From Candidatus Sumerlaeota bacterium (GTDB lineage Bacteria > Sumerlaeota > Sumerlaeia > JAFGJS01), in assembly GCA_016928995.1 (NCBI GenBank), contig JAFGJS010000137.1, positions 1 through 64,000 on the forward strand: 64,000 nt of DNA, given 5' to 3'. Positions within the stretch are counted from its first letter, which is position 1. Every line of letters begins with the position of its first letter. Below are positions 55,995 to 61,771 of this stretch, piece by piece. The position numbers and the translations under genes are program-made. The notes beneath the pieces were generated by a model. The model searched no databases, was not told where the DNA came from, and worked only from the letters and a program-made list of their open reading frames with translations.

Positions 55995-57542
55995 TCAGTC
56001 CAAAGAATGCGGCGGCGCCCAGTTCGGCGCTTTATGGCTGCATTCGGGATACTGACCGATAGGATTGAGCGTGTATTTGCCTCCAGATGGACACTTCGGC
56101 GCTGTGCGCAGATAATTGTTGGGGCCGACCAGCGTCGCGATGCCGCCGGGGATTTCATCGCCTTCGTTCAGGTTGTTGTCCAGCGCGTATTGCCACTTTG
56201 CGCCGTCGAGTTTGGAAAGGTTCTCCTGACAGGCGCGGCCCCTGGCTGTTTCGCGCGCGCGGATGAACGAGGGAATCGCGATGGCCGTGAGGATTCCACC
56301 CGCGGCCGGGCCGTTCATCGTCATCATTAGGGCTTGCGGGCTTAGGCGGTTGGGCGATCGTGCGATCCACCATGCGCCGTCCGGGAGATTGACGCGGATC
56401 ATGACATTGGGCGCGGGTTTTTCTCCGGCTTGAGTCGCGCCGTCCAGCAGCATTTGCGACATGACCTGCATCCCGATTTTTTGCTGTTCCTCGGTTGCGT
56501 TTTCCATGCCGGCCAGAAACATGCCGGCGATCACTTGACGCAACCGCCCATTGGAATAATGCATGCCGTTGCCTTCCGCAGGCAGCCCCATAAACATGCG
56601 CTGGAATTCGGGATTGCTTCCGAGATTTTCGGAGGAGGCGTGGGCGCCGATGATTTGGCCGAGATATTCCTGGCTGCTGGCGAGGATCAGGATGTTTTCA
56701 TGCTGACCGACAGCCGGGGAAAATGGAACATCGGGGGGCGTGCTGATGACTTTGACCGGTATGCCTTCGACTTCATATTCGCCCATGGGAAACGGCGATA
56801 GCTCGAATTTTCCAGTGAGGTAACGCAGCGGCGCGTCGTTCTTCACGCGAACCAACAGTGCGACGTCAACGAATGGGATTTTCATCCCGGCAGGCTGGCT
56901 CGGAAAGAACTCCTCTTCATCAAAATCGAGCAGCAAGGCGTATTCATCGCCCAAGCCCTCGAGCAGTGTGTCGAGATTTGTAGCCAGTTGCATTTGGAGC
57001 ATCATCAAAACGCCTTCCAACTGCGACTGCTGCTTTTGCGTGCCGTGTTGCGCGAACGTCTCGCGCAGCCCTTTAACGAGTTGACCGAAATTCAGATCCT
57101 CACAATGGAAGAGCTCGGTTTGCGCCGGAGCGTAGCGCAGCAAGTCAAAGGCGTGCGGCTCTCCGCCGAGGGATTCGAGCAATCCCTTGCGTCGCTCGGA
57201 CGGGATGTGCAGGAAAATTTTATTCAAATAGTGATCTTCTTCGCGAATGCTGCTGGCGCCGACATCTTCGATGCCGTAGAGTCCCGAGGCGATGCTCAGT
57301 AATTTTATGATGGATACGACTTCTTCGGCTTTGGGATCGTGAAGGGTGGAGCTCATCAGCTCCGTCAATGTCTCAACCTGGCTTTGCATCACATCTTCGA
57401 TGTCCATGTAGACATAGAGCACGCCGCCCCGGTCGAGGCGCTGTTCCACTTTCTGGAAATCGCTGGATGGTTCCTGGGCGAAAGCGATGTTCGCCAGCAC
57501 CATCCCCATCATGATCAGCCACGTGTGTCGTTTGGTTGACAT
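55995..57542 (-). CDS. Large secreted protein with a C-terminal pseudopilin-like segment
   Basis: A 515-residue protein with a signal peptide (WLIMMGMVLANIAFAQEP). Residues ~30-400 are a globular region of unknown function, resembling large secreted DUF3352-like proteins. At ~410 begins GGILTAIAIPSFIRARETAR, then CQENLSKLDGAKWQYALDN and PKCPSGGKYTLNPIG, which match the C-terminal globular part of small pseudopilins. The long N-terminal pilin helix is missing. A fusion or a remodelled pilin-derived domain is likely. Confidence 0.75.
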   Translation of the reverse strand: MSTKRHTWLIMMGMVLANIAFAQEPSSDFQKVEQRLDRGGVLYVYMDIEDVMQSQVETLTELMSSTLHDPKAEEVVSIIKLLSIASGLYGIEDVGASSIREEDHYLNKIFLHIPSERRKGLLESLGGEPHAFDLLRYAPAQTELFHCEDLNFGQLVKGLRETFAQHGTQKQQSQLEGVLMMLQMQLATNLDTLLEGLGDEYALLLDFDEEEFFPSQPAGMKIPFVDVALLVRVKNDAPLRYLTGKFELSPFPMGEYEVEGIPVKVISTPPDVPFSPAVGQHENILILASSQEYLGQIIGAHASSENLGSNPEFQRMFMGLPAEGNGMHYSNGRLRQVIAGMFLAGMENATEEQQKIGMQVMSQMLLDGATQAGEKPAPNVMIRVNLPDGAWWIARSPNRLSPQALMMTMNGPAAGGILTAIAIPSFIRARETARGRACQENLSKLDGAKWQYALDNNLNEGDEIPGGIATLVGPNNYLRTAPKCPSGGKYTLNPIGQYPECSHKAPNWAPPHSLD

Positions 57543-57728: not shown

Positions 57729-57734
57729 TATGAT
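57729..57734 (+). promoter_or_regulatory. -10 box for the riboswitch transcript
   Basis: TATGAT lies 15 bases before the riboswitch P1 stem, so a start near 57741 fits. A matching -35 is weak. A TTGACA at 57674 is too far away to pair with it. Confidence 0.4.
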
Positions 57735-57743
57735 CCGTTGATT

Positions 57744-57930
57744 GCAGCAGGTGTCTCAAATCCCGGATGCGCGTGCTTCGGGGGGAGAGAGTAAAAGGGA
57801 AGTCCGTGTGAATCGGACGCGATCCCGTCACTGTAATTGGCGACGGCGACCCCATCACGCCACTGGCCCGGTTGGGCTGGGAAGGCGGGGAACGCCGGAT
57901 GACCCATGAGCCAGGAAACCTGCCTGCTGC
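57744..57930 (+). ncRNA. Cobalamin riboswitch
   Basis: Consensus elements appear in order: 5' P1 strand GCAGCAGG (57744-57751), the AAAAGGGAAGTCCGTGTGAA region (57793-57812), GATCCCGTCACTGTAA (57821-57836), GGCGGGGAACGCC, and the B12 box GAGCCAGGAAACCTGCC (57908-57924), closed by CTGC…GCTGC pairing with the 5' strand. It senses adenosylcobalamin or related corrinoids and lowers expression when B12 is plentiful. The leader continues to the first gene at 58150. A weak hairpin plus a T-rich tract at 58017-58026 could serve as an attenuator. Confidence 0.96.
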
Positions 57931-58067
57931 CCGACCGTGACTCGACCTTTTTCGAGGATGAAAAGGCGGGGCGAACCGTGGCCAGCTTAAACCGCATATT
58001 CTGTATCCCTCGCGGGCTTTTTCTTTTCGCTGTGTCATTCTGTTTAATCGCTTCCCTTTTTGCATAG

Positions 58068-58083
58068 GACCGTCCGGACGGTC
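58068..58083. promoter_or_regulatory. 16-bp perfect palindrome in the riboswitch leader
   Basis: GACCGTCCGGACGGTC lies between the riboswitch and the first gene (67 bases before its start). It may be a protein operator, or as RNA a stem that hides the ribosome site. No second copy is seen in the window. Confidence 0.5.
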
Positions 58084-58149
58084 TGAATGCTATTCCTTTG
58101 ATTCGGTGAGATCCACGGCGGAATGACTCAGGCACGAGGAGATGCCGCC

Positions 58150-59616
58150 ATGAAACGTTTGGTTTTTTCGCTCTACGCCGCGCTGGCGTTGAGCGCTGTG
58201 GGGAGCATGCAAGCCGCAACGCAAGATCCGCGTGTGGCTTTGGAAGGGAAGGTTGTCGAGTGGGCCGGGAGCGGCCCCAACACTGCATTCGTCGTGATTG
58301 ATTTCGACGCTTCCACCACCGGTTCCGCCGAATTCGCCTTCGGCGTACAGTTCACCAGCCCAACGATCACCGGAATAGAGGCGCTGGAAATCCTGGCCGA
58401 CGCCACGAGCGTGGAATTGACCAGCACAGTGTACAGTTTCGGAACATCAATTGACGCCATCGAATACACCCGCGACGGCGAGACCTACTATCGCACTTAC
58501 GCCTATGATTACAGCGAGTTCTGGAATTACTACGCCAGCGCGGATTCCGGCGTCACGTGGGAAATGTGCAGCATCGGCGCCTCCGACCGCATCCTGAGCG
58601 ATGGCGATGTGGATGGATGGCATTATGACGCATGGGGCGCGTCGCCACCGAATGGACCGCGCGTCTTACCCGCGTCCACGCTGCCCTTGGAGCGCGAGGT
58701 GGTGGAATGGGCCGGCTGCGGCGAGCGTTCGGCGTTCGTCGTGGTCGATTTTGATTTATCCACCACGGATTCGGTTGAGTTCGTCTTTGGCGTGAATTTC
58801 ACCAGCCCGACGATCACCGGCGCCGAGGCGCTGCACATCCTGCACGCGGAAACCAGTTTGCGCGTGACAGGCACCTCTTATGGCTATGATACGTTCGTTG
58901 ATTCCATCGAATACACGCACAACGGCGAAACGTACGTCAGCACAGGGACATTGGCGGATGAGACGTACTGGGCGATCAACAACATGCGCGGAGCGGATGA
59001 GTGGGCTTATGCCAGCACCGGCATCGAGGGACGCACGTTGCATCATGGCGATGTGGATGGCTATCAATTCCTGGGGTGGTACGACTTTTCCACCGGACCG
59101 AACGGACCTGTGACCGGCGATCCGCCGCAAGACATACTTGTCACTGATGCCATCGACTGGGTGGGCGCGGGCGAGCGCGTGGGTTACGTGGTCATTGACT
59201 TCGACAAGTCCACAACCGACTCGCGCGAATTTGTGTTTGGCGTGCGTTTCGATTGTCCGACGATCACGGGCGAGGATGCGCTGCAGTTGTTGATGGATGA
59301 AGCCGGACTGGAGATCACCAGCACGACCTATTCATTCGGCACATTCATCGACAGCGTCACTTACGAATACGAAGGCGAGACATACACGGCGACCGGCAGC
59401 TTCGCGACATCGACGTATTGGTCGGCCTGGATTAGCCGCGATTATGGCGCGGCATGGGATTACGGTTTGGTCGGCATCAGCGACCGGATGTTCCATCATG
59501 CGGATGTAGATGGGTATCAATTCCTGGGCTACTCCGACTTCACATCCGGTCCGAACGGTCCGCGTCAGCTGCCGCCAGTCGTAACACGAGCCAGGATCTG
59601 GCGCTGGTATGAATAG
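58150..59616 (+). CDS. Secreted protein with three transcobalamin-C-terminal-like (DUF4430-like) repeats
   Basis: A 488-residue exported protein. ATG 58150 has GAGGAG eight bases upstream; a signal peptide is followed by three ~137-residue repeats (35-171, 184-320, 334-471). Each repeat has VVEWAG-type start, FAFGVQFTSPTITG, EAL, YSFGT-x-IDAIEY, then GASDRILSDGDVDGW and a final SGPNGP. The order (ITG-x-EAL, Y-x-FGTxIDxI, short W/Y strand, G-x-x-R-x-L-x-DGD) resembles the C-terminal domain of transcobalamin and intrinsic factor. With the cobalamin riboswitch upstream it is a strong candidate corrinoid-binding protein. Binding itself is inferred. Confidence 0.82.
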   Translation: MKRLVFSLYAALALSAVGSMQAATQDPRVALEGKVVEWAGSGPNTAFVVIDFDASTTGSAEFAFGVQFTSPTITGIEALEILADATSVELTSTVYSFGTSIDAIEYTRDGETYYRTYAYDYSEFWNYYASADSGVTWEMCSIGASDRILSDGDVDGWHYDAWGASPPNGPRVLPASTLPLEREVVEWAGCGERSAFVVVDFDLSTTDSVEFVFGVNFTSPTITGAEALHILHAETSLRVTGTSYGYDTFVDSIEYTHNGETYVSTGTLADETYWAINNMRGADEWAYASTGIEGRTLHHGDVDGYQFLGWYDFSTGPNGPVTGDPPQDILVTDAIDWVGAGERVGYVVIDFDKSTTDSREFVFGVRFDCPTITGEDALQLLMDEAGLEITSTTYSFGTFIDSVTYEYEGETYTATGSFATSTYWSAWISRDYGAAWDYGLVGISDRMFHHADVDGYQFLGYSDFTSGPNGPRQLPPVVTRARIWRWYE

Positions 59617-59659
59617 CCAGCTTGAGCGAAGTGTGTTGTAAGACACGATCCTTCTTCCG

Positions 59660-59697
59660 GGCAATTGTCAATTGTCCATTGGCAATTGACAATTGTC
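59660..59697. repeat. Inverted repeat between first and second riboswitch-operon genes
   Basis: Perfect 13-bp stem CAATTGTCAATTG / CAATTGACAATTG with an eight-base loop (up to 17 pairs with wobbles), 45 bases after the first stop and 30 before the second start. It may protect or tune the intercistronic RNA. Similar CAATTGT-rich elements occur in other genomes. Confidence 0.85.
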
Positions 59698-59727
59698 GCG
59701 GATGAAGACTGCAAGCGAGGAGTTCAA

Positions 59728-61098
59728 ATGATGTTATATGGGAACTACAGAATGAAGCGGCAGATAATCGGTCTTGTTTTGGCGGCGCTTGCACAGTTGA
59801 TGTTCTGCATGCTTTCCGCGCGTGGTGACTATGAATTCATTATGCCACAACGCCTGACTGATGCATCCGAGAATTACCAACTCTCGCGTTGCGCCAACGG
59901 CCAGTTGGGATTCGACACCAGCGGCACGCTGCACATGACCTACTGGTCCGGCGGCGCCAGCGCGTCGGAAGCCGATCCATCCTACGTTTATTATCGCTCG
60001 ATGGACGCGAACGGCGAACTGAGCGTGGCGGAAAGCATTGCCGGTTCGGGCGGCGGCACGTACATCGGCGGCCGCCAGCCGTCGCTCGCGCTCGACGCGG
60101 ACGGCGGCGTGTGGATCGTCTGGCACGATCATCGCCACACGTCTTCGGCCACGGGCGACAACAACATCAACAACATCGAAATTTACGCGGACCATAAACC
60201 AGCGGGCGGCTCGTTTCTTGCGGATGATCTGCGGTTGACGAATTCGAGCGCTTCACACTCCGGCGACAACGGCTATGCGCCGCGCATTGTTGCACATCCC
60301 TCCGGCGCGCTTAGCGTCGCGTGGTATGATTTCAATTTCAGCGCGACGGGCGAAGTATCGGATCTGTGCTTAAAGACAGGAATGGCGGCGGACGGATTCG
60401 ATCTCAGCGAGACTATGAGCGAGATGCGGTTGACGAACTTCAATGATCGTGACGGCGATCCATCGTATACCGTGCCGGATCTTTGCGTGACGCCAGACGG
60501 CTCGCGGCATCTGGTCTGGGGCAGTGATTTTCTGGCCGGTGGCGATCTGTATTACGGCGTCGCGACTTCCGGCTCCATGACCTTGAGCGAAACAGTGCTG
60601 GCAACCGGTGCGTGGGATTTTTTTGATCCGGCGCACATCGCCGCTGCGCCCAATGGCGATGTGTGGATCGCATACGGCGATCAGACGGCCAATGGTGGAG
60701 CGGCGGAGAACGTCGTGTTGTTGCGCAAACGGGCCGGGGAGGCGTCCTTCGATCCGCCGGTCACACTGTTTGCCGCTTCCGCCCGGCAGTACGCGCCGGA
60801 CATCGAGATCGACGCGGACGGCATCGCGCACGTGGTATGGATCGACCGGCGCGACGGACGTGATGTGTATTACGCCCGGCTCGACACGGCGACGAATGAG
60901 ATTCTATCGGCGCGAGCGCTGACTACCTATGACGGCAATTGGGAACGTCCTAGCATCGCGCTGGACGCCGCCGGAAGTCCGGCAGTGTTGTACGAGGAAA
61001 ACATCGACCTGGATCACGGTGACATCTGGCTGGTTCGCGTCAAGGCGTCCGTCCAAATGACCGGCGCGGATTCACGCTTATGGGAATGCTATGAATAA
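59728..61098 (+). CDS. Secreted beta-propeller protein (riboswitch operon)
   Basis: A 456-residue exported protein. ATG 59728 or 59731 has GAGGAG close upstream. The n-region and core (MKRQIIGLVLAALAQLMFCM) form a signal. The rest has repeated blade motifs with x-x-Dx-DGxxHxVWxD (ALDADGGVWIVWHD; TPDGSRHLVWGSD; IDADGIAHVVWIDRRDGRD), typical of sialidase/BNR-like propellers. It ends SRLWECYE, similar to the tail of the preceding gene (IWRWYE). Bacteroides BtuG, a high-affinity corrinoid binder, is also a propeller, but no close relation can be claimed. Stop overlaps the next start. Confidence 0.78.
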   Translation: MMLYGNYRMKRQIIGLVLAALAQLMFCMLSARGDYEFIMPQRLTDASENYQLSRCANGQLGFDTSGTLHMTYWSGGASASEADPSYVYYRSMDANGELSVAESIAGSGGGTYIGGRQPSLALDADGGVWIVWHDHRHTSSATGDNNINNIEIYADHKPAGGSFLADDLRLTNSSASHSGDNGYAPRIVAHPSGALSVAWYDFNFSATGEVSDLCLKTGMAADGFDLSETMSEMRLTNFNDRDGDPSYTVPDLCVTPDGSRHLVWGSDFLAGGDLYYGVATSGSMTLSETVLATGAWDFFDPAHIAAAPNGDVWIAYGDQTANGGAAENVVLLRKRAGEASFDPPVTLFAASARQYAPDIEIDADGIAHVVWIDRRDGRDVYYARLDTATNEILSARALTTYDGNWERPSIALDAAGSPAVLYEENIDLDHGDIWLVRVKASVQMTGADSRLWECYE

Positions 61099-61771
61099 CT
61101 CGCGCGCACATGGCTTCACTTTGCTCGAACTGCTGGTGGTCGTGCTGATCATCGGCATCCTGGCGCTGATCATTTCGTTCAACATGCGCGTGGCGGTCGA
61201 GCGCGCCTGGAAGGCGTCCGACGCGGCGAACCTGCACACGCTCGCCGCGGCTTTGCAGACGTATTACATGGATCACGGCGAGCTGCCGCTGGGCGATCAC
61301 GAAGCCGGACCGTTCATGTCGCACACGCCGGATTTCGACCAGGTGGGCAACGGTCCGGCGGGCGGCGGATCGTGGGACGGCGTGCCGTGGCTGCTGTATG
61401 AATACGGCTACGTGAGCAGCTGGACGGTTTTCTTCAACCCGAAGTATCTGCGCCGGCTGGATTGTCCACAGACGATTCGCGGCGGCTATCCGCGCTTCCA
61501 TAATTTCCGCTACGCATACAACAGCGCCAACGCCTCGGCCGGGGGGCATGCGGGCGGTTCGGGCGACATCATGAGCGGCGAAACCTGGCTCTTGCGCGAC
61601 ATCTGGATCGGTCCGCGCGACGGTTTTTACGCCGCCAATTATCCCGGCTATCCCGCCGACTACGAATACCCCTGGGGCGAAGGCGAATACGAAAACAAGC
61701 TCGAGCACGCCGTCTATGCCGACCTCGCCGTCCGCCTCGTCATCGGCGGCACTGACGAACGCGTGGAGTGA
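61091..61771 (+). CDS. Pseudopilin in the riboswitch operon
   Basis: A 226-residue pseudopilin with the signal HGFTLLELLVVVLIIGILAL (Glu at +5). Its start codon lies within the end of the propeller gene (8 bases overlap), so the two are translationally coupled. The globular part is rich in Gly/Trp/Tyr (YLRRLDCPQTIRGGYPRFHN; GPRDGFYAANYPGYPADYE), and ends in a beta strand region. Role presumably in surface display or export of the preceding proteins. Confidence 0.9.
   Translation: MNNSRAHGFTLLELLVVVLIIGILALIISFNMRVAVERAWKASDAANLHTLAAALQTYYMDHGELPLGDHEAGPFMSHTPDFDQVGNGPAGGGSWDGVPWLLYEYGYVSSWTVFFNPKYLRRLDCPQTIRGGYPRFHNFRYAYNSANASAGGHAGGSGDIMSGETWLLRDIWIGPRDGFYAANYPGYPADYEYPWGEGEYENKLEHAVYADLAVRLVIGGTDERVE

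Follow-up and report, generated by a model that had tools for sequence, protein, structure and literature searches.

Introduction

To our knowledge, every well-described bacterial route for vitamin B12 across the outer membrane uses a TonB-dependent receptor. The cobamide uptake loci known from Bacteroides encode BtuB, BtuG and BtuH or BtuJ (PMC8941943, PMC10404256, PMC12751083), and BtuH2 (PDB 7BIZ) binds B12 (PMC8941943). Binding of B12 has also been demonstrated experimentally for DUF4465 proteins, which are of the BtuJ type, and a survey of DUF4465 gene neighborhoods reports TonB receptors, propellers and ABC transporters without mentioning pilins (PMC13398666). Our literature search found no paper that joins cobalamin riboswitches with pilins of the kind described below.

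Here, we analyze a riboswitch-led operon in a 64-kb window, by which we mean the whole stretch of DNA studied, from a 4.55-Mb genome (G000). The first-pass annotation had read its genes as a B12 scavenging device that captures corrinoids and is delivered through a pilus or the type II apparatus. Like the Bacteroides Btu loci, operons of this type are led by a cobalamin riboswitch and encode secreted or surface proteins, including propellers and a jelly-roll family, which are candidate corrinoid binders that would feed BtuFCD. Unlike those loci, the operon lacks a gene for a TonB-dependent BtuB, its candidate binders carry a C-terminal tag or PEP-CTERM signal whereas the Bacteroides binders are lipoproteins, and a dedicated pilin occupies a fixed place in the gene order.

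Results

A cobalamin riboswitch precedes three genes for secreted proteins and a pilin. The aptamer (RF00174, 57732..57941, plus strand) is full length, as the first-pass annotation had claimed: its cmscan score is 115.7 bits (E 2.6e-28) against a gathering score of 31.5 bits, and the match spans model positions 1-189. It is the sole Rfam match within the window. The leader between aptamer and ORF1, corresponding to the expression platform (57942..58149, plus strand), carries CCCTCGCGGG and a T-rich run near 58000-58025. A plus-strand terminator scan listed no site in this leader, in which we found neither a clear terminator nor a masked ribosome site, the RNA fold not being decisive. ORF1, ORF2 and ORF3 follow in that order on the plus strand, with a gap of 48 or 111 bases between ORF1 and ORF2, depending on which of two possible starts ORF2 uses, and with the start of ORF3 lying inside the end of ORF2 (an overlap of 8 bases). 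This layout, including the overlapping last two genes, agrees with the initial reading, as does the absence of btuB, btuF and cob genes from the operon. The btuFCD genes of the host genome are on a different contig, C30. One further RF00174 site is present in the genome, preceding nrdD, which encodes the class III ribonucleotide reductase. NrdD is B12-independent and a standard target of switches that B12 turns off. Divergent from the operon, at 55995-57542 on the minus strand, is a gene for a DUF3352-like protein with a pilin-like C-terminal stretch (GILTAIAIPSFIRARETARGRACQENLSKL...) and a weak match to the pilin profile used below.

ORF1 (58150..59616, plus strand) starts at an ATG behind GAGGAG, the longest frame beginning at 58123, and ends in ...RARIWRWYE. 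It consists only of a signal peptide, three repeats and a tag. The repeat alignment places the repeats at 58246..58671, 58693..59124 and 59143..59574 on the plus strand, the second and third sharing 50% and 47% identity with the first, which upholds the earlier description of a triple-repeat secreted protein. Repeat 3 was modeled with AlphaFold2 from an input of the three repeats and one distant homolog, at moderate confidence (pLDDT 61, pTM 0.60). The best six Foldseek matches to this model are all transcobalamin or intrinsic factor chains, among them 7qbe_C (E 3.6e-3, prob 1.00), and 5np4, an isolated beta domain with cobalamin, matches at E 0.012. In a VIA comparison, transcobalamin, intrinsic factor and haptocorrin account for all of the first 14 entries (Z 8.1-9.2), the next entry falls to Z 6.4, and the alignments lie on the C-terminal beta domain of these proteins. 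The transcobalamin-like fold proposed from the sequence was thus recovered by structure prediction, and each ORF1 repeat is predicted, from this moderate-confidence fold, to be a transcobalamin-type beta domain. Unlike transcobalamin, ORF1 has no alpha6/alpha6 barrel, carries three beta domains in tandem, and is bacterial and tagged.

Kinship between ORF1 and transcobalamin was also sought at the sequence level, and Pfam, sequence-profile and PDB sequence searches gave nothing significant. In the Pfam search, PF14478 (DUF4430) matched neither ORF1 nor any other protein of the genome, leaving that profile blind to these domains. A weak NCBIfam match to the SCO2322 family (E 7.8e-6) is below the cut-off of that family. 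Among 61 genomes searched around G000, the ORF1 domain occurs in G000 only, which counts against a capture role. Taking the predicted fold together with the genes that accompany it, corrinoid binding by ORF1 is likely.

ORF2 (59728..61098, plus strand; longest frame from 59665) ends in ...SRLWECYE. A single-sequence model (pLDDT 50.6) matches seven-bladed beta-propellers in VIA with Z scores up to 22.6, including YncE at 18.6. PLL-family propeller lectins are among its best structural neighbors, and propellers of many functions score similarly. The likeness to BtuG suggested in the first-pass annotation therefore holds for the propeller fold and fails in other respects, since ORF2 has no family-level match to BtuG, no canonical lipobox was seen in it, and a BtuB partner is missing. 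The family to which ORF2 belongs, C2, has 16 members behind riboswitches. In sister operons ORF2 is replaced by members of two distinct families, C1, a second propeller family, and C5, which is PQQ-like.

ORF3 (61091..61771, plus strand) has the prepilin motif GFTLLELL, and its N-methylation motif scores 32.5 bits with PF07963 (cut-off 21.2), in keeping with the pseudopilin originally proposed. Its N-terminus is nearest to the GspG, ComGC and PilA families, and its score against the GspG equivalog TIGR01710 (43.3 bits) is below the cut-off of 88.85. Like type IV minor pilins and type II pseudopilins, ORF3 combines a prepilin cleavage motif with an N-terminal helix; unlike them, it has a head domain of its own, occurs once per genome and stands behind a B12 riboswitch. 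The head is highly conserved, with the signature GNGPAxGGSWDGVPWLL.

We searched 40 genomes of the host's phylum with a profile built from riboswitch-linked pilins. Exactly one full-length ORF3 ortholog was found in 36 of them, at 190-335 bits, and all other pilins in those genomes scored no higher than 93.6 bits and matched mainly in the N-terminal part. Twenty-eight of the 36 orthologs are on the same strand as, and within 4 kb downstream of, an RF00174 site, together with secreted proteins, so that the conserved association with the riboswitch anticipated by the first-pass annotation is found in relatives. The chance of such adjacency is about one in a thousand per genome, which gives a rough overall estimate below 1e-70. 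Among the remaining orthologs, those of G001, G002 and G011 stand behind capture-type genes close to the end of a contig, and that of G005 is itself at a contig edge. Those of G009, G016, G024 and G032 are isolated, with no adjacent riboswitch or capture gene, and count against the capture reading. At one locus (L137:600-646, minus strand), an Acido-Lenti-1 sRNA match of 44.4 bits lies on the strand opposite a pilin gene.

All 53 riboswitch loci of the phylum were fetched and read. The usual order is a riboswitch, one or two secreted proteins and a pilin. The secreted proteins between riboswitch and pilin have unrelated folds (families C1, C2, C3, C5 and C10), the ORF1 type being confined to G000. 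In several members of the phylum, btuF, btuD and btuC continue after the pilin operon, and this link to B12 import genes supports the scavenging reading. In three related genomes (loci L041, L061 and L087), the B12 pilin operon is directly followed by larB- and larC-like genes, presumably for the nickel-pincer cofactor.

The C3 family is absent from the window. The only PDB match of its profile, among matches to E 10, is the B12-binding BtuH2 structure 7BIZ, at a weak E of 0.11, and a single C3 protein searched against the PDB gave no match. One C3 protein (L050:4429-5196, minus strand) matches the model of the Leptospira lipoprotein LIC_13355 at E 4.4e-17, below the cut-off of that model; because of this match, LIC_13355 may also be B12-related.

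None of the 40 genomes has CbiC, which marks de novo corrin synthesis. A strong FecCD match, of the BtuC type, is present in 37 of the 40. The TonB plug domain PF07715 is absent from 36 of the 40 in a search that detected its controls, and this search found no alternative outer-membrane B12 receptor in the phylum. The four genomes that have the plug, G000 among them, contain one or two copies each. Since CbiC is absent, BtuC is kept and the plug is mostly missing, we suggest that most of the phylum probably must import corrinoids, with an inner-membrane importer and without a recognized outer-membrane receptor. The only TonB plug protein of G000, of about 1005 amino acids, is encoded on contig C24 (L146), away from any riboswitch; its presence counts against the capture reading. 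Two genes away is a protein with the tag-like ending ATWNQYQ.

A second phylum has the same combination of riboswitch, secreted proteins and pilin, there with PEP-CTERM sorting. Among named genome contigs, a single relative of the ORF1 domain was found, at L035 (labeled Ca. Kuenenia), where a riboswitch is followed by a single-domain PEP-CTERM protein, a C3-like protein and a pilin. Within the phylum of L035, 12 of 294 genomes have an ORF1-like domain. Of 12 further loci that were fetched, 10 have an RF00174 site on the same strand upstream and 10 contain a pilin, one of the exceptions being cut by a contig end; C3-like proteins occur in five of these loci as well as in L035. A separate riboswitch survey of this phylum added four pilin loci (L221, L223, L241 and L249) and other loci with TonB receptors. 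L221 has the order riboswitch, DUF4465 protein (E 2.3e-56), C3-like protein, pilin and BtuF; DUF4465, present in this equivalent operon, is absent from that of G000. Several of the pilin-type genomes of the second phylum also have TonB receptors, which counts against the capture reading, and TonB counts in pilin-type versus other operons do not constitute a test here, the comparison genomes having been partly picked for TonB in the operon. In another phylum, a riboswitch operon (L094) encodes a TonB-receptor-like protein, a propeller-like protein and a DUF4430 protein (PF14478, E 2.7e-17).

ORF1 and ORF2 share a C-terminal tag: WRWYE plus stop in ORF1 (59599..59616, plus strand) and WECYE plus stop in ORF2 (61081..61098, plus strand), the latter overlapping the start of ORF3. 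In loci picked by riboswitch and not by tag, the consensus [SA]-x-V-x-D-W-x-L-Y-E describes 52 of 55 riboswitch-linked secreted proteins (35 of 55 by a stricter rule), and the 68 other ORFs of these loci all lack it. A 400-kb sample from another genome yielded the tag on 3 of 289 ORFs, or 3 of 38 that are secreted-like. A strict count of W-x-x-Y-E in the genome (9 matches versus 9 in the control) is uninformative alone. The tag was considered as a B12-specific signal, and this was ruled out by its occurrence on a few other secreted proteins without a B12 link, in G000 a large secreted protein with repeated domains and an SGNH-hydrolase-like protein (L101/L147 and L103/L148). Because it is found on such proteins too, the tag seems to be a general signal that is heavily used in B12 operons, and it probably directs the export or surface attachment of ORF1 and ORF2.

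Discussion

There is good support for regulation of this operon by B12 and for its part in acquiring the vitamin. We consider it probable that the operon is a B12-repressed corrinoid-capture system, in which tagged secreted proteins and a dedicated pilin carry out the step across a presumed outer membrane before BtuFCD; corrinoid binding, the function of the tag, the mechanism of the pilin and the passage across the outer membrane are the inferred parts of this model. When cellular B12 is low, the riboswitch would permit expression of the capture proteins ORF1 and ORF2, and the W-x-x-Y-E tag would lead to their export or surface attachment. ORF3 would act as a dedicated minor pilin, taking its place in the type IV pilus or the type II secretion apparatus of the cell, and may either display or secrete the capture proteins or return their cargo through the secretin. 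BtuFCD, whose genes lie elsewhere in G000 and belong to the operon itself in some relatives, would then import the vitamin. The gene set would substitute for the TonB-dependent receptor BtuB, missing from most members of the phylum. In its most specific form, this model is a TonB-independent route in which a retractable minor pilin carries corrinoid-loaded tagged proteins, or their cargo, through the pilus or type II secretin to BtuFCD, a proposal that we put forward tentatively.

Other explanations would assign the pilin a different part. A pseudopilin could push out the capture proteins or fix them at the surface via the type II system, with the corrinoid re-entering through some unrelated porin or receptor, in the way known from hemophores, and the pilin staying outside uptake. 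The resemblance of the tag to a general sorting signal, given its use outside B12 operons, and the nearness of the ORF3 N-terminus to GspG, ComGC and PilA are consistent with such a role. However, a conserved single-copy head, preceded by a B12 riboswitch in 28 of the 36 genomes, exceeds the need of a general exporter, and the TonB plug search of the phylum yielded no alternative outer-membrane receptor through which B12 could return; we regard this explanation as unlikely, if still a serious one. A role in attachment is more doubtful still. A B12-starved cell might make a pilus with lectin-like propellers that sticks to B12 producers or detritus, its proteins binding glycans and not corrinoids, as the PLL-family lectins among the best neighbors of ORF2 could suggest. 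Propellers of many other functions score much like these lectins, however, ORF1 matches transcobalamin-type domains above all else, and the equivalent operon L221 contains a B12-binding DUF4465 protein and BtuF. The stretch between ORF1 and ORF2 would allow the riboswitch to govern ORF1 alone, with ORF2 and the pilin as chance neighbors; this seems highly improbable, as ORF2 and ORF3 overlap and riboswitches are repeatedly followed by members of their protein families across many families of the phylum.

A corrinoid-capture system of the kind preferred here would bear on several unannotated protein families. The analysis suggests what a number of secreted families, the C-terminal tag and the pilin family may do. 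It also indicates that bacteria encode tandem domains with a predicted transcobalamin-like fold. A phylum whose 40 searched genomes all lack CbiC, mostly lack TonB receptors and nearly always have the B12-operon pilin provides a concrete, testable case for another route of B12 across the outer membrane. If the pilin route is real, it would take the place of BtuB in an entire phylum of B12 auxotrophs and, with PEP-CTERM proteins, in some members of a second phylum.
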